A DNA stretch of 10,330 nucleotides from Xanthobacteraceae bacterium (GTDB lineage Bacteria > Pseudomonadota > Alphaproteobacteria > Rhizobiales > Xanthobacteraceae): assembly GCA_030043175.1 (NCBI GenBank), contig JASHYD010000358.1, forward strand, positions 1 to 10,330, given 5' to 3'. A model generated the notes under the pieces. It was not told where the DNA came from and made no database searches. It saw only the letters and a program-made list of their open reading frames with translations. Shown here piece after piece: positions 1-10,330 of this stretch; the first letter of the stretch is position 1, and each line of letters starts with the position of its first letter. Made by a program: the position numbers and the translations under genes.

Positions 1-484
1 ACGTTGAAGTTCTTGCGCATGTAGGGCAGTAAATCCTTCATCACGAAGTCTTCCCACTTCTGCGAGCCGTCCCTGAAATTCATGTAGAATGAGCGGTCGG
101 CAGACGGCATCACCGACACCATCGGCGCTACCAAGCCGTTTTCGATCGCCTGATCGAGCAGCCCGCCCATGCCCCCGCCCCCCGACAGGGCGCGGAAGTT
201 TTCCCTGTCTTTGTTCGAGCCGCCGCCGCTGTGAAGCTGAATGAGGAGCGGATAGCGCTCTGCGCGCTTCGCCTCATAATTCTTGGGCAGGTAATAGGTG
301 ATTGGTACCGCGTTCGCCTCGCCACGGCGGTGAGCCGGAGATGGGACATTCGTGCTCGCCACGGTCGTCTTGCCAAGCGTGCCTTCATGGCGGGCCCGGG
401 CGTCGTGGGTGTTTGTGACACAGCCACAGCAGCCGAAAGCGGCGCTACGCCCACGAGGGTGGGCGCGGTCGCATGGGCGTTCAT
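1..484 (-). pseudogene. Secreted esterase / alpha-beta hydrolase, N-terminal part, frame broken, runs off left edge
   Basis: Probably a secreted serine esterase of the putative esterase (esterase D / feruloyl esterase-like) group. The body, read from about 420 down to 1, contains VPITYYLPKNYEAK, RYPLLIQLHSGGGSN and ENGLVAPMVSVMPSADRSF, which match the first strands and oxyanion-hole region of that fold. The nucleophile elbow and the rest of the triad would lie beyond the left edge. The start chosen is the ATG at 484, 8 bases after a perfect AGGAGG. It opens a signal-like stretch (MNAHATAPTLVGVAPLSAAV). That frame does not join the body: the body is read one base back, so one base was lost or two gained between about 400 and 460. 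Both frames are otherwise open. It may be a dead gene or a sequencing error. The hydrolase family call is fairly sure; the substrate is unknown. Confidence 0.7.
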
Positions 485-492
485 AACATTCA

Positions 493-498
493 CCTCCT
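493..498 (-). promoter_or_regulatory. Ribosome binding site of the esterase
   Basis: A perfect AGGAGG on the minus strand, 8 bases before the ATG at 484. It decides the start of the broken esterase gene, because no start codon with such a site exists in the frame of the gene body. Confidence 0.65.
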
Positions 499-502
499 GT
501 TT

Positions 503-598
503 GCCTACGGAGATTACACCGTCATGCCAAGTCGTCGAAACGGGCCTGCCAAGGTCCGTGCATTCGTCGAGTTCGCCCGGTCGCTGTTATCTCGATAA
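503..598 (+). pseudogene. C-terminal tail of a probable LysR-type transcriptional regulator
   Basis: This frame reads AYGDYTVMPSRRNGPAKV then RAFVEFARSLLSR and a TAA stop. A tyrosine-Pro-Ser-Arg-Arg segment followed by K-V-R-A-F-V-E-F is the usual end of the effector-binding domain of LysR-family regulators. Only about 31 codons are left. Upstream the frame overlaps the start region of the esterase on the other strand and shows no helix-turn-helix. It is therefore a 3-prime remnant, perhaps of a regulator once next to the esterase. The family assignment rests on a short motif and is moderate. Confidence 0.45.
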
Positions 599-1052
599 GC
601 AAGGCATCGGCCCCATAGGGCGGCCCGAGGACCAAACAGTTGTGATGTCCGAACTTCCGGAACGGGTCACAAGCGGCCCTTCGCTTCGGTCGAGCCGAAC
701 GCCAGCTTCACCTTCACCAACAGACATTCGCCAGAACAACAAGTCGCCGCACTCGGGCCGATGCTGCCGACGTGGGATCGCTTTCGGTTTTTGAGTGCCG
801 ACCAAGAGACGGTTGCGAGCGCGCACTGCGGTCGCGGCGAGTTCCTGCATGGTCGCTGATCTCAGTGCCCCTTGCGCGCCGGCACCCATATCACTGTCTG
901 AAAGGGCGCGAGCGACATCCGCAAGGCGTTTGACGCCGGGCCGGATCGCTCAATGCCGACCAAGAGAAGTTAAGAAATTAAGAGCCGCTAGCAAGTACGG
1001 TATTTCTGTTCCGCTCAGGTGAGAAAGATCGGATTTTAACGTGAGTGTTGGC
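599..1052. other. Gene-free stretch, about 450 bases
   Basis: No supportable gene. A minus-strand reading from about 940 to 790 is protein-like in composition (VKRLADVARALSDSDMGAGA, then MQELAATAVRARNRLL), but it has no recognised family, start or ribosome site; it may be the worn tail of a gene. A 14-bp direct repeat, TGCCGACCAAGAGA, occurs at 796-809 and 954-967. The palindrome TTCCGGAA lies near 654. The stretch looks like degenerate intergenic DNA. Confidence 0.4.
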
Positions 1053-1570
1053 CTATCGCGGCCACGCATAGGCAATTTTGTCGAGCGACTTGTTGCCGAA
1101 TGTCTCGCTGGACCGGGCGACCGGCCGACCGCCAACGGCGCGAAAGAAAGCAACCGCAGGGGTATTATCCGACAAGGCCCAAACTACCAGGCTCTTAAGG
1201 CCGCTCTGCGTCAGATCGCGCCTTACCGCCTCCAACAAGCGGTGTCCAAAGCCCCGCCGCTGGAATTCCGGGCGCAAGTAAAGCTCTAAAGCTCGTAGAT
1301 TTCCCCGTCATAAGCCAAGATTCGCGCCCGGTTCCGGCCGTAATTGGTATAACCAGCGACGGTGTCGCCGAACACCAGAATCCAAATTCGGCTGCCCTTG
1401 CGGATTGCACCTTCCCACCATTCCGTCGGGCGCCGGTTGATGAGCTCGTCCAGTTCCGGGCCCGGGATAATCCCCAAATACGCGGTACGCCAAGCCAACT
1501 CGTGAACCGCCGCCAGAGATTCAGCGTCGGACGCTGTGGGGCGGCGGATTTGGACAGCCACATCCTGCAT
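1053..1570 (-). pseudogene. GNAT-family N-acetyltransferase, broken by an 8-bp tandem duplication
   Basis: Would transfer an acetyl group from acetyl-CoA to an amine; the substrate is unknown. The first 94 codons (from ATG 1570: MQDVAVQIRRPTASDAES...) end at a TAG at 1286-1288 directly after GEIYEL. The rest continues in another frame as YLRPEFQRRGFGHRLLEAV and NTPAVAFFRAVGG, ending at 1053. The break is an exact tandem duplication of GAGCTTTA. Removing one copy restores EIYELYLRPEFQRRGFG and a 169-residue protein, the normal size of a GNAT. Q-R-R-G-F-G is the acetyl-CoA pyrophosphate loop (motif A); the NTPAVAFF region is motif B. The truncated product would lack both, so it should be inactive. 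The start at 1570 has only a distant GGGGA, which fits it being the inner part of a larger frame shared with the Clp domain upstream. Confidence 0.88.
1279..1294. repeat. 8-bp tandem duplication that breaks the GNAT gene
   Basis: TAAAGCTC occurs twice in direct succession on the plus strand (GAGCTTTA twice in the gene). It adds 8 bases and creates an in-frame TAG. Removing one copy restores an uninterrupted acetyl-CoA binding motif, so the duplication is the inactivating event. Confidence 0.92.
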
Positions 1571-1584
1571 GATCGCCGATTCCC

Positions 1585-2076
1585 CTATCCTGCGCTCGCC
1601 GATCTGCTCCTCGACTCCTCGACAGGTGGCGGGCGTTCGGTCAGCCCGGTGCGCTTGGCGATGCCGTAGCTGATAAAGTTGACGGCATTTTCCTGCTCCT
1701 GCAGGAAATGGACGGCGTGGCTCCCCCGTTCGGCAAAGATCGCCACCAGCACGTTCGCGCCCGTCACCTCCTCGAAGCCCGAAGACTGGACATGGATGAC
1801 GGCGCGCTGGATCACGCGCTGGAAACCGGCAGTGGGCTTTGAGTCCTCCGAGCTGTCCGTGGCGAGATTATCCAGCTAGGATTCCCAGTACCTCACGAGA
1901 CCGCGGCGCAACCTTTCGATGTCAACGTTGCAGGCCCGCATCACTGCGACGGCATCCCGGTCGTCAACCAGCGCCAGCAACAGGTGCTCAATCGTGGTGT
2001 ATTCGTGGTGCCGCTGGTTGGCGAGCGCAAGCGCTCGGTGGAGCGATTGCCCTAGACTGCGCGAGAACGTTGGCAT
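1585..2076 (-). pseudogene. ClpA-type N-terminal (Clp repeat) domain without ATPase modules, interrupted by an amber codon
   Basis: The protein starts MPTFSRSLGQSLHRALALAN, very close to the N-terminus of alphaproteobacterial ClpA. The first Clp repeat covers residues 1-66 (EYTTIEHLLLALVDDRDAVA) and the second about 82-140 (VIQRAVIHVQSSGFEEVTGA, NVLVAIFAERGSHAVHFLQEQ, NFISYGIAKR). In ClpA this domain binds substrates and the ClpS adaptor. A single TAG at 1876-1878 stands where ClpA has a Glu (WES-stop-LDNLAT); the same frame continues on the other side, so one base change explains it. About five residues (MTRxD in ClpA) are missing before AVNFIS. After GIAKR the sequence leaves the ClpA pattern and there is no Walker motif. 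The start has GAGGAG 8 bases upstream. The frame ends at 1585, 14 bases before the GNAT start. A second 8-bp duplication near the end separates the two frames. Confidence 0.88.
1607..1622. repeat. 8-bp tandem duplication between the Clp domain and GNAT
   Basis: CTCCTCGA is repeated exactly twice on the plus strand (TCGAGGAG twice in the gene). With one copy removed, the Clp-domain frame reads through PPVEEQIGERRIGESAI straight into the GNAT methionine, with no stop. With both copies it ends at the TAG at 1585. Confidence 0.9.
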
Positions 2077-2130
2077 CAGGTCGTCTCCTCGTCACGCATC
2101 GCGCGCAGAAATTCGATGCCCTGGCGCACC
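2076..2130 (-). pseudogene. Possible tail of a translationally coupled upstream gene
   Basis: A short frame reads VRQGIEFLRAMRDEETT and stops at a TGA that overlaps the Clp-domain start codon (TGATG), a layout typical of coupled genes in an operon. It carries the GAGGAG used by the Clp start. Just upstream a TAG at 2128-2130 interrupts the same frame, which is open further back. No family is recognised. It may be the end of a decayed first gene of a Clp-GNAT operon, or chance. Confidence 0.3.
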
Positions 2131-2433
2131 TAGAAGCCGCGCCCATTCTGCACGTTGTTCGATCTTGCGGTTTTGGTGGCTTTCGCAATAGGTGAGCGAA
2201 TTTCAGGAAGTCTACTCGCCGGCCTTCGAGGTGGGTAGCCTCGGTCTCTTGAACGTGGTCGAGGCGTTCCTGTCGAGCGTGGGGGCCAGATAGCGCCAAG
2301 GCTTATCAGCCAGTCCGTAGCGATCCTTACAACCCTATTGCTTGCCCTCGCGTCTTTCACCGAAGCCGGCGACCTGAACCTTCTGGAAGATCGCTGCCAA
2401 GCTCGCGATCGCTCGCCGCCGACCCAGAGACGT

Positions 2434-2447
2434 TCGATGGTCGATGG
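2434..2447. repeat. 7-bp tandem duplication
   Basis: TCGATGG occurs twice in direct succession and is followed by the near copy TCGGATGG. No gene is affected. Confidence 0.7.
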
Positions 2448-2631
2448 TCGGATGGACGAGGCCTCGACGATTGGCCCTGGGGCGGCGCAAAAGCACGCGG
2501 GCGCGATCGCACACGCCGGTCCCAGAGACGTTCTGGAATTGTGATGGTCTCAGTCTCAGAACGTGCACCATCTGAAATAGTGCGCGCGCCGAATTGGCCA
2601 ATACGGGAACGTAATCGAAGAACCTACATCT

Positions 2632-2649
2632 TCGGGTGACTCGGGTGAC
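2632..2649. repeat. 9-bp tandem duplication
   Basis: TCGGGTGAC occurs twice in direct succession in non-coding DNA. Confidence 0.8.
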
Positions 2650-2712
2650 CCCATGATGCGTCTTCGCGCGACCGTTCGATCAGTGACCGGAAGAGCCACG
2701 CACCTGCTAGCT

Positions 2713-2934
2713 ATGCCTAGCTATAGTGGGCTTATGATCGCACAACTACCTGATCCGGTAGCTGTCGAAATTGGGAGGCAGATGGCGCGTTCTTCCTTCT
2801 GCGTCTGAATCGCGCTGTGGTTTGCGTTTGCTGATACCTGGCACGAGACGTTAGAGGCGGCGAAGAGCCAAGCGAATTTCGAATTTGGCGTTGAAGAAGG
2901 TGATTGGAAGGAAGGGCGACGATGCGGGAACTGA
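2713..2934 (+). pseudogene. Small conserved protein of the DTWH type, two compensating frameshifts
   Basis: Three pieces read in order: MIAQLPDPVAVEIG (frame of the ATG at 2734, in frame also with ATG 2713), DGAFFLLRLNRAVVCV (from 2781), and ADTWHETLEAAKSQANFEFG with VEEGDWKEGRRCGN and a TGA at 2932-2934. Together they resemble a short alphaproteobacterial protein of unknown function with an FFLLRL core, a DTWH motif and an acidic FEFxVEEGDW end. The middle piece is one frame back and the last returns to the first, which fits a one-base loss near 2778 and a one-base gain near 2829 (GTTTGCTGAT where GTTGCTGAT is expected). As it stands the first frame ends early. The family resemblance is from memory of its pattern; function unknown. 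Confidence 0.55.
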
Positions 2935-3464
2935 TCAATGGACGGACGGCTCCTAAAGCATCGGTTGGAGCGACGGCAACGTTGGGGCTCCCGTGGCGAT
3001 CGGCACCGCAGTACAGGGCTTTTTTCGCCGATCGCATCAATGCGCGAACCGGGAATGCGCGAACCGGGACACTTCAGGGACACTGACCAACGCCTTGCCG
3101 TCTAACCAATTGAATTAACGTGATGTTCTCCTGGTTACGGAACGCAATGTAAGCCCACAACAAGGCCCTCATCGCAGAAAGCATAAGGAACGCACTGGAC
3201 CTGCTCGAAGGAGCAAGCGATGTTGGTCGACGCGGATCGTACGGGCGGCTAACCAAATCGCTACCGAATTTTGTCGTGGATGCCGGTTGTCACGATCCTT
3301 CCTTGCGCTGGCGCGGCTGCAGGCGCCCTGGCTGGTTGAGGCGGAGCTGGCGCAGGCGTTGCCGCAAGCCGGCCATCGTGTCAATGGAGGCCTGCAAGCC
3401 ATCCTGCGCGGCGCGGGCAATGTCGATTTGCTTTTCCCGGCGCGTACCTGACTTTCAGAAACAT
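2935..3464. other. Gene-free stretch; one coiled-coil-like minus-strand remnant
   Basis: No complete gene. On the minus strand 3454-3290 is open and reads REKQIDIARAAQDGLQASID then TMAGLRQRLRQLRLNQ to a TGA. The hydrophobic spacing and the Gln/Arg/Leu content look like a helical or coiled-coil protein end, but there is no ATG with a ribosome site and a stop lies just upstream; it may be the tail of a lost gene. A 15-bp tandem duplication lies at 3039-3068. Confidence 0.35.
3039..3068. repeat. 15-bp tandem duplication
   Basis: AATGCGCGAACCGGG occurs twice in exact succession. It is a multiple of three, but no supported gene covers it. Confidence 0.9.
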
Positions 3465-3491
3465 GAATGCCCGGCCATGAGCCGGGCATTC
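3465..3491 (-). terminator. Hairpin terminator after the heme/propeller gene
   Basis: GAATGCCCGGC, a 5-base loop and GCCGGGCATTC form an 11-bp perfect GC-rich stem 35 bases beyond the stop codon at 3527. The tail on the minus strand is only weakly T-rich (ATGTTTCT); on the plus strand GGTTTT follows, so it could stop transcription from both sides. A second smaller stem (TTTTGGCC / GGCCgAAAA, 3494-3518) lies between it and the gene. Confidence 0.75.
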
Positions 3492-3526
3492 GGTTTTGGC
3501 CAGAGGTCCGGCCGAAAAGCTGAGGA

Positions 3527-5695
3527 TCAGTGTGCCAGGGGGTCCGGGCGAACCTGGAACTTGACCACCTTGGGCAGGGTTCCCTTCCCAGTTTCCATGT
3601 GGAATGGCGTCCGGTTCCCGTTGGTGGTCCACAGACCGCGGCCTTTCCAGCCGCCATTCGGATCATCGATGCGGCCGTCCATCCACTTGGCATAGAAGCC
3701 GAGCGGATACGGGACACGCATGTTGACCCACTTGCCGTCCACGAGGGCCATGAGCGACTCGTTGGCGTCGCCCGTGGCCATCGGCACGTTGGTGCCGAGA
3801 CCCGAGGTGTTGAACTGGTCGACAAAGGTGAAGTAGCTCGCTTCGGCGCTGCCGCTTTCAGCCACGTTCTTGAACTGCGGTCCCGGGAACGGCGTGAGCG
3901 TCCATCCCTCCGGACAAAGCTTACCTTCGGCCGCCTGCGGGCCGTTGAGTGGGCCCTTGCACTTGCGACGGTCGAACGCGCCCATGTGACCGCTTGAGAG
4001 CGGAACATAGGCGACGCCGTTGCGGTCGATGTCGAAACCGCGCGGCCCGTAGCCCGGGGCCGGCACCTCGTAGATTTCCGCCAAGGCGGTCTTCGACGGA
4101 TCGGGCCCCGGATCGAGCCGCAGAATGGAGCCTGGGAAGCCGAGTACCGAACCCCAGATCGTTCCATCGGCCGGGTTCACGCCGATTCCGTAGAAGGCCG
4201 CATTAATCCGCTTGTCCTTGGTCGGATCAACCGGCTGGTTGGGCTCGACATAGTCGTCTCGCTTGCCGTTGCCGTTGGTGTCGATGATGGCCGGGGTCCA
4301 GCCCTGGGCCTTCGCCTCGTCGCCGGTCTCCTCATACACCTTGCGGTTTAGCCATCCGATGGCGCCCTGCGCCGAGCCGCCGGCGCTGGTCCACAGGGTG
4401 TTGTTGGCGTCTTCCGCGAATATTAGGTGGTGGGTATTGAAGCAGGTCCGGATCAGCTTGATGTCGCCGGTCTTCGGGTTGTAATAGGCGAGATGCCGGG
4501 TGGATGCTTTGATCGGAAAGACCTGCGCCGAGGGATGGTTCGAGCCGGCCTGGCAGAAGGCCGGATTGTCGGACTTGCCGACCCGCGAGGTGATCCAGAC
4601 GTCGCCCCGCTCATCCATCATCGGATTGTGCATGCTGGTCCGCGCATCCCAGATCGCCTCCTCGCCCCAATAAGGGGACGCCGCCATGGTGTTCGTCTTG
4701 GTCGATTCCATGTCGGCGTCGCGTACCGGCATCGTGACCTTGGTCGCCGTGTTGGTCTGCGGATCGAGCACCGGGAAATATTCGGAGCTCTCCTCGGTGG
4801 ACCCGTAGCTCTTGCCATAGGCATTGACCGTCGGCTTGCGCTTGTCGGTCGAGACCTGATCGTGCAAGTAGACCTTCGGGTCGGCCCAGTCCCACTGGGT
4901 GATCACGACATTGCGCTCGACCCCTTGGGGCCGCTCCGGCTTGGCGAAAGGCAATTCGCCTGCCGCAATCCGGTCAGTCCATTTAGCTAGATTTGCAAGC
5001 GATGTGGTGCCCTGCCGGCCGATGGCGGCGGCCATCGAGATCATCGCCTGTCCGGATTGGATACGGCGTTCCCAGGCCTCGACGGAGTTCTTGAAGGTCC
5101 CGAGTGTCGGCGAAATGGTGCGCGTCGCCTTGTTGCCGAGCTGGTGGCAGGTGTAACAGCCGTTGGTCTTGATCTGGTCCAGGAACTGCTCCTGGGTCTT
5201 CATTCCGGTCGCGATGCCATTGCCGTTCGACCCAGTGCCGGTGCCCGGGAACATGCTCTTCCCGGGGATGTCGAGCATCGCGTACCAGTAGATGGCAGGA
5301 TAGTATTCGGCCGCAGCCGCCGCGTTTGGGGCGGGCACCGCCGTGATGTTTACGATCTTGCCAGGCTCGCTCGTGGTCTTTGCCGAATCCACAAGACCAT
5401 AACCGCGCGCCCACACCACGTAATTGGCTTTAGGGAGATCGGGGATCACGTAGCGACCCTGGTCATCCGTCACGACGGTCTTGCTCATCCGTGTAGGGAG
5501 GTCGGTCGTCTCGGCAATCACCCAGACGCCGGCTTCCGGGCCATTCGGCCCACGCACCACGCCGCCGATGTCGGTCGCCCCGATGCTGACGGCGGGAGCA
5601 CTCTGCTGGGCCCTGACCGATGTCGGCGCGGTGCCAAGCGCGAGCGCAAGGGCGATCGCCGCCGCGCTCAAATACAATCCGCATTTTGTTGTCAT
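3527..5695 (-). CDS. Secreted protein: carboxypeptidase-like regulatory domain, one c-type heme site, propeller-like C-terminus
   Basis: An intact 722-residue exported protein, probably a periplasmic redox protein. Residues 1-30 form a signal peptide (LYLSAAAIALALALGTAP, cleavage after VRAQ). Residues 40-125 form a carboxypeptidase-regulatory-like beta sandwich (GGVVRGPNGPEAGVWV, VVTDDQGRYVIPDLP). C180-Y-T-C183-H184 is a heme-binding CxxCH in a small cytochrome-like helical segment to about 250; Met218 or Met221 could be the sixth ligand. From about 355 on there are repeated strand motifs like those of Vgb/SMP-30 propellers (MMDERGDVWITSR, GVNPADGTIWGSV, GFDIDRNGVAYVPL). DTNGNGKRDDY at 472-482 resembles an EF-hand calcium loop. 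The ATG at 5695 is chosen over longer starts because GGAGG lies 6 bases upstream and the signal peptide follows at once. It is downstream of the YVTN gene and the PQQ dehydrogenase on the same strand. An electron-acceptor role for the dehydrogenase is inference. Confidence 0.9.
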   Translation of the reverse strand: MTTKCGLYLSAAAIALALALGTAPTSVRAQQSAPAVSIGATDIGGVVRGPNGPEAGVWVIAETTDLPTRMSKTVVTDDQGRYVIPDLPKANYVVWARGYGLVDSAKTTSEPGKIVNITAVPAPNAAAAAEYYPAIYWYAMLDIPGKSMFPGTGTGSNGNGIATGMKTQEQFLDQIKTNGCYTCHQLGNKATRTISPTLGTFKNSVEAWERRIQSGQAMISMAAAIGRQGTTSLANLAKWTDRIAAGELPFAKPERPQGVERNVVITQWDWADPKVYLHDQVSTDKRKPTVNAYGKSYGSTEESSEYFPVLDPQTNTATKVTMPVRDADMESTKTNTMAASPYWGEEAIWDARTSMHNPMMDERGDVWITSRVGKSDNPAFCQAGSNHPSAQVFPIKASTRHLAYYNPKTGDIKLIRTCFNTHHLIFAEDANNTLWTSAGGSAQGAIGWLNRKVYEETGDEAKAQGWTPAIIDTNGNGKRDDYVEPNQPVDPTKDKRINAAFYGIGVNPADGTIWGSVLGFPGSILRLDPGPDPSKTALAEIYEVPAPGYGPRGFDIDRNGVAYVPLSSGHMGAFDRRKCKGPLNGPQAAEGKLCPEGWTLTPFPGPQFKNVAESGSAEASYFTFVDQFNTSGLGTNVPMATGDANESLMALVDGKWVNMRVPYPLGFYAKWMDGRIDDPNGGWKGRGLWTTNGNRTPFHMETGKGTLPKVVKFQVRPDPLAH

Positions 5696-5701
5696 GCCAG
5701 T

Positions 5702-5706
5702 CCTCC
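5702..5706 (-). promoter_or_regulatory. Ribosome binding site of the heme/propeller gene
   Basis: GGAGG 6 bases before the ATG at 5695. It overlaps an in-frame upstream ATG (MWRTG), which rules that one out as the main start and places the signal peptide at the N-terminus. Confidence 0.7.
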
Positions 5707-5993
5707 ACATGCTGCATTTTTTAGGCGGAAACCGATCGGAGCCAAAGCCGATCGATGCAAAAGTACGCCGGTTGGTCCCGGTTGTCGTTGGGCGGCATTG
5801 AGGCATATTTCGGCGCGGTTGCAAAGACGTTCGCTTCACGCGCGCTTTGGCGCGCCAAGAGCACGTCTAACCGCAACCCGAAGCTCCGGTCCAAAGAGCC
5901 AAAGTCACTGTGACACCGCGAGGTATGCACTGGCGCACATATGAGGAAACGGGGAAGGAAAGTGAGAACGCAAGATCGCGGCCAGCATCCGCG

Positions 5994-6664
5994 TCACCGC
6001 CAACCATTTCGAACTGCGCAGGCCCCGCAAAACGCTTTAACCGCAGTCTGCAGTCCCTGCACGGTGGGGAACCCAAGGGCTATCGCCGCCGCATGAAGGC
6101 CGCGAAACGTCTGGGCCAACGCCGAAATACTCTGTCCATAACAGCTGGCATTCCCAGGCGTCCCAGCAAACCTTGGTTGGATTGAACACACCAAACGCAA
6201 TCGGGCCTTCGCCGACCGGAAGCACGGCTACAACCGTGTTGGTCGCGGTGTCGATCGCCGATATCAAGGCCTGCGAGCAACCCGTTCCGGGCGTTCCGCA
6301 AACGGTGCTGTTCGTACGACGTGACATAGACCTTGCTGCCGTCCGGGCTGACCGCCACGACACCGGCGCCGAAGCCGACCACCGTGATCGTGGCGACCAC
6401 CGTATTGGCCGCGGTATCGATCACCGACACGGTGTTGTCGCCGGTGTTCGTGATGTAGGCCATGCTACCGTCCGGAGTTGCCGCCACACCCAAGGGGGAA
6501 GCACCGACCAGGATCGTGCCTCTCACCGTGTTGGTCGCGGTATCGATCATCGACACGGTGTTGCCGCCGCCGTTCGTGATGTAGGCCATCTGCGCGGATG
6601 ACGGCGCGCTGCCGAGGGCAATTGCTACAAAGCCGACCACTGCGGGAAAAAAAGGACCTGTCAT
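5994..6664 (-). pseudogene. Secreted YVTN beta-propeller repeat protein with two one-base insertions
   Basis: Short exported propeller protein of the YVTN type. A signal peptide (MTGPFFPAVVGFVAIALGSA, cleavage after SSAQ) is followed by three 42-residue blades: MAYITNGGGNTVSMIDTATN, MAYITNTGDNTVSVIDTAAN, and VYVTSY continuing in a second frame as NSTVCGTPGTGCSQALISAI. A third frame gives the Cys-containing tail RFAGTPGNASCYGQSISALA to FCGACAVRNGWR and TGA at 5994. Each shift is explained by one extra base: near 6313 (TACGAACAGC for TACAACAGC) and near 6183 (TTCAATCC for TTCATCC). Without them a 222-residue protein results, normal for this group. As it stands the product loses its third blade and tail. 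There is no clear ribosome site; an IS-type end lies 10 bases before the ATG. Its partner or ligand is unknown. Confidence 0.85.
6411..6589. repeat. Two 53-bp near-identical blade repeats in the YVTN gene
   Basis: Segments 6411-6463 and 6537-6589 differ at only four positions and are 126 bp (42 codons) apart. They encode the NTVS-IDTA strand and the MAYITN strand of neighbouring blades. The high DNA identity points to recent duplication or conversion between blades. Confidence 0.8.
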
Positions 6665-6674
6665 AGTCTCGAGA

Positions 6675-7108
6675 GGTCAAAAAACCGGAACGCTCTAGAA
6701 TCTCTCGGTTATCCACTGCCAGGATGGGATTTCGATGACGCCGTAGGTCGGCTCGAGGGAGGCAGTCATTGGTTGGGCACGCATGCTGGCGTACGTCACT
6801 GGGACGATGGACCAAGAACTGCTGGCGCGGAATGAATATTTGAGCGCCGAGAACCGCATTGTGAAAGCCCAGTTGAATGGACGCTTGAAGCGCTCCAGGC
6901 TTGGTGAAATCGGGCATCGGCTCGGGCGCACGGCTCTCGCCGAGGTCACAACTATGGCTAGGCCCGACACCATCCTGGCCTGCTATCGCAAGCTGGTCGC
7001 CCACAAATTCGATGGCTCGAAAGCTCGTGCCGCGAGCGATTGGGCGGGCTCCTGCGTTATTATCATCAGGAGGCCGCATGAAAAGCCGGTCAGATGAGTT
7101 TTTTGACC
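6675..7108 (+). mobile_element. Internally deleted insertion sequence bounded by 11-bp inverted repeats
   Basis: GGTCAAAAAAC at 6675-6685 and its exact reverse complement GTTTTTTGACC at 7098-7108 flank a transposase relic. The right copy begins 16 bases after the transposase stop and the left copy ends 97 bases before its start, as expected for terminal repeats of an IS. The element is only about 434 bp, far too short for a working IS of this kind, because the transposase core is missing. No target-site duplication is evident next to the two ends. The ends are inferred from the repeat and its position, not from a known element. Confidence 0.55.
6783..7081 (+). pseudogene. Integrase-type (DDE) transposase relic: N-terminus joined to C-terminus
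   Basis: From ATG 6783 the frame reads MLAYVTGTMDQELLARNEYL, then RLGEIGHRLGRTALAEV and RPDTILACYRKLVAHKFDGS. This is the N-terminal DNA-binding part of a transposase with an integrase core, common in rhizobia and other soil bacteria. At about 7021-7028 it passes directly, in another frame, to CRERLGGLLRYYHQEAA and TGA 7079-7081, the characteristic last residues of the same family. Roughly 200 or more residues carrying the catalytic Asp-Asp-Glu are missing. Part of the N-terminal region (after NGRLKR) also looks shortened. It cannot encode an active enzyme. Confidence 0.8.
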
Positions 7109-7421
7109 AAACGGGATTTGGGTCGCCTCGACCTGGAAACAGAACCTGGAACTGGTCGCAGCTCTGAGCTCGTTGTGCGAGGCAACCCCGACGTGGCGCC
7201 CCCTCCCTGCAACGGCGGCATTGGCGGAAAATCCGCAGCTTTCGCGATGGATGACGGTTCGGACTCCTCGGACCATTCGAGAAAAATATTGAGCGTTGCG
7301 GCGGGCGGGTTCAGATAAAGGTCCTTGCTAACCGTTGCGGAACACTGCGGCCTCGTCGTTGGCAGTCGAGCACACTGGAGCTCGATAGGGAATACAATCA
7401 TTGCGTGGCGCCACGAATGAT
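7109..7421. other. Gene-free stretch between the IS relic and the dehydrogenase
   Basis: An open plus-strand frame at 7094-7318 (MSFLTKRDLGRLDLETEPG...) and a 29-codon frame at 7078-7167 preceded by AGGAGG both overlap the IS end. Neither shows a family motif, and the AGGAGG is also part of the transposase tail codons. I do not call either a gene. The stretch ends in a double hairpin. Confidence 0.4.
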
Positions 7422-7451
7422 CTACCTCTCCCCGCTTGCGGGGAAAGGTAG
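7399..7451. repeat. Double hairpin, REP-like, after the dehydrogenase gene
   Basis: A first stem centres on the 12-bp palindrome CGTGGCGCCACG (7404-7415), extended by CATT/AATG. Next, 7422-7451 folds as CTACCTcTCCCCGC, TT, GCGGGGAaAGGTAG, with 14-bp arms and one mismatch. It begins 14 bases beyond the dehydrogenase stop codon (7466). The minus-strand side has no T-run, so it resembles dispersed REP-type elements known in rhizobia more than a standard terminator, though it may still stop or protect the transcript. Confidence 0.6.
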
Positions 7452-7465
7452 ATGCGGCGACTTTA

Positions 7466-9238
7466 TTATAAGGCGAACACGTACAGCATGGAGGCTGGCG
7501 CCATGTTCTTGATCTCCGGCGCCAACCCGTAGATGTTGATGTTCTGGCGCGAGCCTGCGAGCACCGCCACAAATTGCTTTCCGTTCACTGAATAGGTGAT
7601 TGGCGGCGCGTTGATGCCGGTGCCGATATTGAAACTCCACACCTGCTTCAGGGTCCTTGCATCATACGCCCCGAAGGTGCCGTCGGCCTCACCGATGAAT
7701 ACCAGGCTTCCCGCAGTCGCGAGCGCGCCGCCATAGTTGGGGTAGTCCATCTTCAGTGACGTCTTGGTCTCCCCGGTAACGGGATCGACCGCCTTCAGGC
7801 TACCGTAGAGCCGCTGAACCGTCTTGGCGCTGCCGCCTGTGAAACGCTCCCGTACTTTCGAGGGGCCGCCCTGGTCCTCCATGTCCTTCTGCTCAACGGT
7901 CTCGATGGTATTGCAGCCCTCGATCGAGGGAATGAACATGAGGCCCAGTTCCGGATTATAGGCGGATGGCTCCCAGTTCTTGCCGCCCACATTCGACGGG
8001 CAGGTGCGCGCCGAGGGCTGCCCGCGCATACCGTGCGAGCCCGCCGCATAGACCTGGATATCGGTGCTAGGATTGTAGTTGAGCGGGCGGCCGGTCTTGG
8101 GATCAAGGCCGGGGGTCCAGTTCAGCTCATCGACATACTGCTTGCCGGCGACGAATGAGCCGTTGGTGCGGTCGAGCGCGTAGAAGAAGCCGTTGCGGGC
8201 AGCGTGAACGACGAGCTTGCGATCCTCGCCATTGACCTTGGCGTTGATGATCGGATGCTCGGAAATTTCATCATAGTCATAAGGGTCTTGCGGCGTGTAC
8301 TGGAAGCCCCACTTAATCTTGCCGTCGTTCGGGCTGATGGCAAGCACGCTTGCGGCCCATTTGTTGTCGCCCGGGCGGTATTGGATGTCATAATCCGGGC
8401 CTGCGTTGCCGACGCCCTGGTAGAAGGTGTCGGATTCCGGATCGTACGTCGCGGTCTCCCAGATTGAGCCGCCGCCGTGCTTCCAGCGCTCCTTGCCGTC
8501 CTTCCAGGTCTCGTTACCGGGTTCGCCGGTTCCCGGGATCGTGTAGGTGCGCCACGCGGACTTGCCGGTGTTGAGGTCGGTCGCCTCGATGTAACCGCGG
8601 ATGCCGAATTCGCCGCCGGCGGCGCCCACGATGGCGAGATCACGCACGATCAGGGGCGCGATGGTCAACGTCTCGCCGATGGCGGGTTCAGCGATCTTGC
8701 GCTCCCACACCACTTCGCCCGTCTGCTTGTTGATCGCGAACATGCGGCCATCAAGCGCGATTGAGATCACTTTGTCCTTCCACAGCGCGACGCCGCGGTT
8801 GTTGACGCCGCAGCAGGCGACGTCGCCCGCCCAAGCGCGGTCTGTGCCGGGGTCCATCTTCCACTTGATGACGCCCTTCTTGCCTGCGGTGACGTCGATT
8901 GCGTAGACGGAGCCCCAACCGTCCGGCACGTACATGATGCCATCCTCGACCAGCGGCGTCGCTTCGAGGGCGCCGGACGCATAACGCCCGCCGCTCTGGA
9001 ATCCGCCTAGCGCTACCGTGAATACGGGCTTGAGGTTCTTGACGGTGTCGGTGTTGATCTCCTTGAGCAGCGAGAATCGATGCCCTTGGTAATTGCCGTG
9101 GTGTAGCAGCCAGTTCTGCGGCTCGCGTTGTGGATTAAGGAGGCGCTCATTGGTTACATCGGCGCCGCGTGCCGGCGTGAGCGCGGTTGCTATCAGTAGC
9201 GCACCCACCACGTTTCCCATAACGGACTTGCTATTCAT
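7466..9238 (-). CDS. PQQ-dependent alcohol dehydrogenase, methanol/ethanol family, lanthanide-type active site
   Basis: An intact 590-residue periplasmic quinoprotein oxidising primary alcohols with PQQ. Signal peptide at residues 1-26 (VVGALLIATALTPARGA). The eight-bladed propeller shows WxxxDPxT-type and KxxW tryptophan-docking motifs. Vicinal cysteines Cys142-Cys143 (DVACCGVNNRG) form the disulfide ring over PQQ. Metal and PQQ ligands by alignment with methanol dehydrogenase MxaF: Glu210 (GGEFGIRGY, its Glu177), Asn278 (GVGNAGP, its Asn261), Asp321 (catalytic Asp303). Asp323 in PYDYDEISE sits where calcium enzymes have Ala or Ser and XoxF/PedH lanthanide enzymes have Asp. There is no CxxCH, so it needs a separate electron acceptor. 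The ATG at 9238 is chosen because the signal peptide follows it and AAGGGA lies 7 bases upstream. Substrate and exact subclass (XoxF or ethanol type) are not decided. Confidence 0.95.
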   Translation of the reverse strand: MNSKSVMGNVVGALLIATALTPARGADVTNERLLNPQREPQNWLLHHGNYQGHRFSLLKEINTDTVKNLKPVFTVALGGFQSGGRYASGALEATPLVEDGIMYVPDGWGSVYAIDVTAGKKGVIKWKMDPGTDRAWAGDVACCGVNNRGVALWKDKVISIALDGRMFAINKQTGEVVWERKIAEPAIGETLTIAPLIVRDLAIVGAAGGEFGIRGYIEATDLNTGKSAWRTYTIPGTGEPGNETWKDGKERWKHGGGSIWETATYDPESDTFYQGVGNAGPDYDIQYRPGDNKWAASVLAISPNDGKIKWGFQYTPQDPYDYDEISEHPIINAKVNGEDRKLVVHAARNGFFYALDRTNGSFVAGKQYVDELNWTPGLDPKTGRPLNYNPSTDIQVYAAGSHGMRGQPSARTCPSNVGGKNWEPSAYNPELGLMFIPSIEGCNTIETVEQKDMEDQGGPSKVRERFTGGSAKTVQRLYGSLKAVDPVTGETKTSLKMDYPNYGGALATAGSLVFIGEADGTFGAYDARTLKQVWSFNIGTGINAPPITYSVNGKQFVAVLAGSRQNINIYGLAPEIKNMAPASMLYVFAL

Positions 9239-9706
9239 GTCGCTTTCCCTTTCTGCGCGACGGGCCCGGCACAACTGGAGCAGATTCCGATATCATTAAA
9301 TCACGCTTCTCCGGCATGCCCGCGCTTATCGAATGCTTGTTGCGGGCATCCAGGGGCGGGGGCATGAGGAAAAGATCAAGGCCGCGCTCATTTAGGATGG
9401 TGAGCTTACCACACTCCAGGACCGATGAAATACGATCATTTGATGAAAACGGGCTACCCCGATCGGCTGCCCCATTGCTTCGCTACCGCCGATGTCGCTG
9501 GAAAAGATACCGCAACGGATTCTAACGTGGACGACGCAATCGCGGCGGGCGAATTTGAGCCAGACGAATATCTTTTCTTGGCCCGGGCTGTATCCAAGGC
9601 TGCCGTCGTCAGCATCCACCCAGGAGCTATAAGGGGATAAGATCCTACGTAGGGCGGACCGGCGCGGTGGTACCAGTCGGTGTCCAAACCTACCACCAGC
9701 CCCCAC
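9239..9706. other. Upstream region of the dehydrogenase with one weak plus-strand frame
   Basis: It must hold the promoter of the dehydrogenase, but I see no convincing -35/-10 pair. A plus-strand frame 9425-9640 encodes 71 residues (MKYDHLMKTGYPDRLPHCFA, then an acidic DDAIAAGEFEPDEYLFLARA). It has AGGA only about 4 bases from the ATG and no recognised family. It could be a small protein or chance. Confidence 0.35.
9316..9349. promoter_or_regulatory. Inverted repeat in the dehydrogenase leader
   Basis: ATGCCCGC (9316-9323) and GCGGGCAT (9342-9349) are perfect 8-bp arms with an 18-base gap, 78 bases upstream of the dehydrogenase start. It could be a regulator site or a leader stem; there is nothing to choose between them. 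Confidence 0.35.
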
Positions 9707-9778
9707 ATCAGCAAGGCTGGCCAGTTTGGCGGGATTGGTTTCGCCGCCAATCAGCGCCTCAATCAAAGCGCGTGCTGG
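9707..9778 (-). pseudogene. Fragment of an IS110-type transposase
   Basis: The frame reads PARALIEALIGGETNPAKLA then SLAD, which matches the conserved RAxIEALIxGETxPxxLAxLA segment in the middle of IS110-family transposases. About 24 codons match; after SLAD the sequence leaves the family (expected R-R-I/V-K-A). No other part of an IS110 element is seen nearby. Confidence 0.5.
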
Positions 9779-9916
9779 TCCATCCGCCGGTCGAGAACCT
9801 GCTCACCGGGGTTAGTGAACGTATATCGAGCACCGCTCCGGACACGTCTCAGTTTGATATCAAGCGAATCTCGGCGCCGCTTTGCAAAAAGGCGCGCGGT
9901 TATGTCAGTTGCCACC

Positions 9917-10216
9917 TCACTTGCGATGCTTGAAACCGAGATGACGAATCTTGGAATCTGAGAAGGAGGCCACTTCTTTGCCAGTCAGAACGTAGACAAG
10001 GAGCCTCAGAACGAAGTGGAGAACCACGACGGCAAGGCCCCCAAGAAGTACATAACCACCCAAGACAAGGAACGGTAGCGCGTTAAGACTCCAGAGGCCT
10101 TCCACCACCCCTGCATTTGGCAATGGGCGCTGGGAACCGATGATCAGGCCAATCAGAACCGCTACACCGCCTGCTACCGCCATTGTTGTTCCGATCCACA
10201 ACAACGTCCTGTCCAT
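9917..10216 (-). CDS. Small integral membrane protein, unknown function
   Basis: A 99-residue protein with ATG 10216, 7 bases after a perfect AGGAGG (10224-10229), so a real gene. Residues 5-27 form one membrane span (LLWIGTTMAVAGGVAVLIGL); after a short loop (SQRPLPNAGVVEGLWSLNAL), residues 47-77 form a second long hydrophobic stretch (LPFLVLGGYVLLGGLAVVVL, then HFVLRLLVYVL). The tail (EVASFSDSKIRHLGFKHRK) is basic and probably cytoplasmic. The arrangement recalls small hypothetical inner-membrane proteins; I recognise no family. It has no apparent link to the oxidation cluster, from which it is separated by about 680 bases of non-coding DNA. Confidence 0.75.
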   Translation of the reverse strand: MDRTLLWIGTTMAVAGGVAVLIGLIIGSQRPLPNAGVVEGLWSLNALPFLVLGGYVLLGGLAVVVLHFVLRLLVYVLTGKEVASFSDSKIRHLGFKHRK

Positions 10217-10223
10217 GCTAGCT

Positions 10224-10229
10224 CCTCCT
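10224..10229 (-). promoter_or_regulatory. Ribosome binding site of the small membrane protein
   Basis: A perfect AGGAGG 7 bases before the ATG at 10216; it supports both the gene and the start. Confidence 0.65.
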
Positions 10230-10330
10230 CGTCACAGATTAGCTTGGTTAGGACGTTGTTATCGCCTCTGTCTAAAGCGTTCACGGCGGCCAGTCTGGCG
10301 CGCTGGAAGGCGGCGCTAGGCGTTGCTTAG

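Follow-up and report, generated by a model that had tools for sequence, protein, structure and literature searches.

A decayed copy of a fusion gene joining a ClpA-type N-domain to a GNAT acetyltransferase

On the minus strand of a 10,330-base stretch of DNA (the window), a region related to the N-domain of ClpA lies ahead of a region related to GNAT acetyltransferases, and the reading frame is broken in more than one place. The arrangement raises the question of whether these are the remains of one protein or of two neighbouring genes and, if of one, what such a protein might have done. The reading that we favour, to which we assign a probability of about 0.5, is that the window holds a dead copy of a fusion of single origin, and that the intact members of the family are acetyltransferases equipped with a ClpA docking domain and lacking an unfoldase.

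The broken copy and its lesions

Pfam matches to both domains bear out the proposal, first made from the sequence alone, that a ClpA-type N-domain is followed by a GNAT, both on the minus strand. The Clp_N match covers 1876-2076 (-) (E 6.9e-14; 52.2 bits against a cut-off of 20.7), which is the first part of the N-domain, running from the start codon to an amber codon; clpA-related nucleotide sequence starts at 2079. Translation agrees with the earlier note that this amber, at 1876-1878, is the sole stop in the Clp frame ahead of the first of two duplications. The remainder of the N-domain (1623-1875, -) has 12 nt missing in frame relative to clpA, a gap absent from the earlier reconstruction, and the Clp piece as a whole is 82% identical in amino acids to the full-length ClpA at locus L087. 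The GNAT begins with an N-terminal half that has its own ATG (1286-1570, -) and is 80% identical in amino acids to a free-standing GNAT at locus L001. Its C-terminal half (1053-1278, -) contains the motif QRRGFG and the stop codon, and over 1053-1280 (-) it matches PF00583 (34.2 bits; cut-off 20.7) and PF08445 (39.1 bits; cut-off 22.1). Searched alone, the pieces 1621-1875 and 1286-1621 each gave no match to any Pfam family.

The frame is broken by two 8-bp tandem duplications, which a scan for exact tandem repeats found to be exact, as had been claimed. At 1607-1622 (-), CTCCTCGA is present twice (1607-1614 and 1615-1622). At 1279-1294 (-), within the GNAT, TAAAGCTC is present twice (1279-1286 and 1287-1294), and this duplication appears as an 8-nt gap in the alignment with L001, the best-matching intact GNAT. 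Taking 16 from 1024 leaves 1008, or 336 codons, as calculated before (this is arithmetic, with no bases removed), and the intact relative P0221 described below has 335 residues. The junction between the domains (1574-1606, -) consists of a clpA-like end, to about 1590, and the linker QIGERRIGESAI, which runs up to the GNAT start and recurs in the intact relatives P0221 and P0222; homology to clpA covers 2079-1590 and homology to GNAT genes 1573-1052. The window copy is a decayed, dead member of a clpA N-domain–GNAT fusion gene.

Both frame breaks belong to a wider cluster of six exact tandem duplications with units of 7-15 nt (starts 1279, 1607, 2434, 2632, 2873 and 3039), all within positions 1-3526. 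For exact tandem copies with units of 7-40 nt, the expectation is 1.03 in the whole window and 0.41 in 1-3526, and none of 200 first-order Markov simulations gave as many as six in either, although the stretch 1-3526 was picked post hoc. No such duplication lies outside 1-3526, in coding sequence or elsewhere. The two long intact genes (3527-5839 and 7466-9274) are free of them, which is uninformative alone with only 0.29 and 0.275 expected, and the less coding stretches 5840-7465 and 9275-10330 are equally free. Because these other less coding stretches also lack duplications and fewer than 0.3 are expected per long gene, the duplications form a local cluster and are not proof of selection. 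Positions 1-3526 are either a locally duplication-prone stretch or the site of some local process.

Intact fusions with the same junction

A protein-database search of the kind that the earlier note had called for found intact fusions. The search used the GNAT side of the read-through, with breaks marked X, and proteins of about 184-584 aa; it gave 289 matches, and we examined the best 120. The top two are the clusters P0221 (335 aa, 83%) and P0222 (336 aa, 80%), which have six member sequences each, come from JGI and are presumed to derive from metagenome contigs. Each has a Clp_N domain and a GNAT domain within one uninterrupted frame, with a common junction. Their Clp_N scores are 51.6 bits (P0221) and 42.9 bits (P0222), compared with 52.2 for the window and a cut-off of 20.7, and their PF00583 scores are 50.1 and 52.0 bits, compared with 34.2 for the C-terminal half in the window and a cut-off of 20.7.

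The junction reads LTERPTPVEEQIGERRIGESSIMQDV in P0221 and LTERPPPVERQIGERRIGESAIMQDI in P0222, and its counterpart in the window is VEEQIGERRIGESAI-MQDV. The intact copies carry the same linker as the single ancestral protein that had been postulated, with its junction PPVEEQIGERRIGESAI-MQDV, and so uphold that idea. As the junction falls at the identical residue in the window, P0221 and P0222, a single origin follows, and we are highly confident that the fusion is real and arose once.

Of the 336 aligned columns, 294 are the same in P0221 and P0222 and 42 differ. The agreement is uneven, at 28/40 in columns 41-80 and 40/40 in both 81-120 and 241-280, a pattern suggestive of recombination or mosaic assembly. 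We also observed that P0222 is in places letter-for-letter like the window (IWILVFGDTVAGYTNYGRNRA), which would fit recombination among family members or a chimeric assembly. Relative to ClpA and GNAT, the changes in the intact copies keep the frame: three residues are lost near NYIS, and PYTWE replaces AYDGE. Two further matches, P0004 and P0008, have the same MQD start and lose the frame at about the position of the second break in the window; they are probably additional decayed members of the family.

The two parents

Judged by homology, the parents are recognisable, and the fusion is likely to consist of roughly the first 160 codons of clpA and a free-standing GNAT gene joined at its own start codon. 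The best-matching genome, G001, has both, each as a gene of its own and on a different contig. The N-terminus of a full-length ClpA in G001 (an 877-codon open frame) matches the Clp piece with 82% identity in protein and 85.4% in DNA, and the Clp part of P0222 is 86% identical to the same protein. The DNA homology to clpA spans 2079 to about 1590 and so reaches into the clpA linker. At the DNA level the GNAT shares 81% identity with the 169-aa free-standing gene at L001, also in G001; this homology runs from 1573, 3 bases ahead of the GNAT start codon, to the stop codon. The earlier note held that separate genes in close relatives would count against a fusion. Such genes are indeed present in G001, but fused copies exist elsewhere, so the G001 genes are likely parents and not a refutation.

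The free-standing GNAT at L001 sits between typA and folD (names assigned by eye from translations). Of the 74 loci whose sequence extends far enough, 39 have a TypA match within 1.5 kb upstream of the GNAT, and a FolD match lies by it in 62/75. None of 80 GNAT loci has a Clp_N match nearby, and in 66 of them the upstream sequence extends for 3 kb or more. Given these 80 loci and the separate contigs in G001, clpA and the GNAT gene are not normally neighbours. Of 391 genomes of the same taxonomic family, 373 contain a relative of the GNAT N-terminal half. Synonymous divergence from G001 differs between the halves (dS 0.315 for the Clp half to clpA and 0.646 for the GNAT half to the GNAT gene); the parents may have come from different genomes, or the two genes may evolve at unequal rates.

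Distribution of the fusion

The fusion was seen only in the window, P0221 and P0222. With the junction peptide as query, 3 of 391 genomes of the family matched at E 1e-10 and 209 of 397 genomes of the order (an overlapping set) at E 0.001, the latter on the GNAT side or weakly, and there was no fusion among the matches listed in either set. The best match, in G001, covers only residues 28-64 of the 64 in the query. Those of the listed matches that start before residue 28 are 38-57% identical and, from their sequences, look like chance extensions of GNAT N-termini. None of the plasmid and phage records (72,556 and 50,697) covers 80% of P0222, and viral contigs gave no relative of P0221 and no match to the junction DNA pattern. 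From the Clp side, where the earlier note had proposed listing Clp_N proteins that carry a GNAT, there were none among the best 120 of 7421 matches; P0221 and P0222 themselves fall outside those 120.

Retained residues, predicted structure and family membership

GNAT enzymes have an acetyl-CoA motif of the form Q/R-x-x-G-x-G/A, which is present as QRRGFG in P0221, P0222 and the window. In the N-domain, the residues of E. coli ClpA reported as ClpS contacts are Glu23, Glu28, Thr81 and Arg86 (PMC12493166). In an alignment read by eye these correspond to E25, E30, T82 and R87, and all four of the contacts reported there are kept in P0221, P0222 and the window piece.

An AlphaFold model of P0221 (mean pLDDT 77.7, pTM 0.52) has block pLDDT values of 83-96 in the GNAT part, 53-83 in the helical N-domain (residues 1-140) and below 50 in the linker (146-169), and thus predicts two domains with a disordered linker at 146-169. 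Foldseek searches with this model returned the GNAT folds 1wk4 (TMt 0.85) and 3fnc (0.87-0.88) and the ClpA N-domain/ClpS complexes 1r6o (0.77) and 1lzw (0.74). Solved structures matched by sequence include E. coli ClpA N-domains, 1lzw among them (6.1e-36), and the GNAT 1wk4 (2.2e-18).

The fusion has the features of the GNAT superfamily, namely a PF00583 match, the acetyl-CoA motif and a GNAT fold, the last in the predicted model of P0221. It is not a ClpA unfoldase: Clp_N is present but P0221 and P0222 have no AAA+ domain, and they score 121.4 and 110.1 bits against the TIGR02639 cut-off of 993.15. Nor is it RimI, the ribosomal S18 acetylase, with 24.5 and 26.1 bits against the TIGR01575 cut-off of 86.4. 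The free-standing relative P0224 also falls below that cut-off (32.3 bits), and 'RimI-like' is the source databases' name only.

Selective constraint

Constraint is relaxed in both halves, though present. For the Clp half, dN/dS between the window and L087 is 0.249, compared with 0.023 (L087-L083), 0.021 (L084-L085) and 0.058-0.097 (four others) for pairs of reference ClpAs; comparison of the window with L083 and L084, which are more distant, yields 0.060 and 0.089, within the reference range, but at a saturated dS of more than 1.6. Changes private to the window fall at codon positions 1/2/3 in the numbers 10/11/11 where L087 and L083 agree and 9/9/4 where four ClpAs agree, compared with 1/0/11 for L087 and 8/2/51 for L083; because relatively few of the compared sites are third positions, the pattern is slightly less neutral than it appears. 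The GNAT half is milder, with a dN/dS of 0.156 against 0.075-0.130 in six pairs and codon-position counts of 15/9/28.

We also counted differences at conserved columns, using as references 50 of the best 120 Clp matches, picked by the ClpA linker motif, and 118 of the best 120 GNATs, that is, without P0221 and P0222. In the Clp half, conserved columns account for 11/24 differences in P0221, 12/25 in P0222 and 13/27 in the window; in the GNAT half the counts are 10/49, 8/43 and 13/47. The corresponding proportions in the reference proteins are 6.6% (Clp) and 2.6% (GNAT), and an even spread predicts 85% and 56%. Relaxation of this kind is compatible with a new role that makes fewer demands on the sequence, and also with a young frame on its way to being lost.

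Alternative explanations

The simplest alternative to a joined protein is that two adjacent, separate genes were fused only by the reconstruction. The separate Clp_N and GNAT genes of G001 and the 80/80 GNAT loci that lack a Clp_N match are what it would predict, but P0221 and P0222 each read through in one frame across a shared junction, a contradiction that holds unless both are assembly chimeras. We therefore reject it, and consider it extremely improbable. Assembly or sequencing errors could instead have produced the breaks, the junction or both, and here the mosaic look of P0222 and the uncertain quality of the source data have to be conceded. Against errors stand the recurrence of the junction in three distinct sequences, the clustering of six short tandem duplications in 1-3526, and a Clp half rich in substitutions that show no preference for codon position, as in a decaying gene; error is thus an improbable explanation. 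We think it just as improbable that the Clp half came from proteins with Clp_N domains and no AAA+ module (tandem Clp_N, or Clp_N-Clp_N-ClpS) and not from clpA. Such proteins are common, and 23 of the best 120 Clp matches bear ClpS (PF02617) beside Clp_N. However, the tandem or ClpS-bearing matches listed are 46-75% identical to the query, the identities to the full-length ClpA of G001 given above are higher, and the homology extends into the clpA linker.

A stronger contender, whose chances we put somewhat short of even, accepts the fusion and denies it a role: a rearrangement placed the 5' end of clpA in frame with a copy of the GNAT gene, and the product has drifted without function, its intact copies being young or lucky. 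The raised dN/dS and flat codon-position pattern of the Clp half fit this account, as do the changes at conserved columns in P0221 and P0222, the two frameshifts and the stop in the window copy, and P0004 and P0008, apparently GNAT fragments from this family that lose the frame near the same site. So does the lack of any fusion among the matches listed in the sampled genomes of the family (391) and order (397); only two intact clusters were seen, of which P0222 looks mosaic. The frames of P0221 and P0222 have nevertheless stayed open over 335-336 aa despite 42/336 differing columns, although a length-based search favours open frames and this argument is weak. Their changes relative to ClpA and GNAT preserve the frame and leave untouched both the reported ClpS contacts and the acetyl-CoA motif, and in the GNAT half of P0221 only 20% of differences fall at conserved columns, compared with 56% for an even spread.

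Possible function and related architectures

A function for the intact copies is a real possibility, if a little less probable than its absence. On the favoured reading of an acetyltransferase with a docking domain, about 160 codons of clpA, encoding the N-domain and the start of the linker, would have been joined once to the free-standing GNAT gene at its start codon. The N-domain would then dock ClpS, or else clients with an affinity for ClpA N-domains, and the GNAT tethered to it could meet exposed N-termini and acetylate amines of the docked client; the earlier note had likewise proposed a Clp domain that directs acetylation to targets or links it with ClpS/N-end rule recognition. If the target were a free alpha-amino group, acetylation would make the N-degron invisible to ClpS, and the client would escape ClpAP. 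More specifically, and here we are speculating on what is rather unlikely in this exact form, the fusion might be an N-degron regulator in which a ClpA N-domain without an unfoldase brings ClpS-bound clients to an N-alpha-acetyltransferase that caps the amino group and diverts them from ClpAP, as one among several uses of AAA-less ClpA N-domains in alphaproteobacteria. The sequences establish the fusion, where its two parts came from, the survival of residues for docking and for acetyl-CoA, and the decay of the window copy; ClpS binding, catalysis, the substrate and any effect in the cell are inferred.

The fusion differs from each of the known proteins that it resembles. It shares with ClpA (TIGR02639, NF008263; the ATP-dependent Clp protease ATP-binding subunit) the N-domain of about 150 residues, the four reported ClpS-contact residues and the start of the linker, but in place of the AAA+ modules it has the GNAT. 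With the free-standing GNATs of Xanthobacteraceae, Pseudolabrys, Afipia and Bradyrhizobium relatives it has the same GNAT and start codon in common; these lack a Clp domain. The AAA-less Clp_N proteins P0104 (tandem Clp_N) and P0125 and P0128 (Clp_N-Clp_N-ClpS) likewise carry a ClpA-type N-domain without an unfoldase, but there the partner is a second Clp_N or ClpS and not an enzyme. ClpN repeats fused to vWA domains have been described in conflict systems (PMC7159879); they too have an N-domain detached from the ClpA/B AAA+ proteins, with another partner and in another system. No account of a Clp_N-GNAT fusion turned up among open-licence PMC papers, a scope that makes this negative result weak.

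Were the intact copies functional, they would connect protein acetylation directly with ClpS/ClpAP degradation in a single polypeptide, and would offer a simple test of whether bacteria shield N-degrons by acetylation. Even without a function, the family documents a fusion of domains whose two parents can be recognised and of which both intact copies and a decayed one are known.

Additional observations

The searches also brought up a set of AAA-less ClpA N-domain proteins (P0104, P0105, P0107, P0125 and P0128), either tandem Clp_N proteins of about 315 aa or Clp_N-Clp_N-ClpS proteins of about 380 aa, several of them on contigs longer than 20 kb. Pfam finds two Clp_N stretches in each of P0104, P0125 and P0128, and P0125 and P0128 combine a docking domain with an adaptor and have no unfoldase. 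Of 198 genomes of the family, 177 match P0128; the matches listed cover only residues 1-163 of its 380 and lie mostly in frames of ClpA length.

Two other genes in the window also appear broken. On the minus strand at 6037-6664, a YncE-like beta-propeller reading, with Pfam matches below their cut-offs, switches frame near 6300 and is probably truncated or broken. An esterase-like gene (PF00756) at 3-493 (-) is apparently frameshifted near 360-400, with a different start in one frame and the esterase in another.
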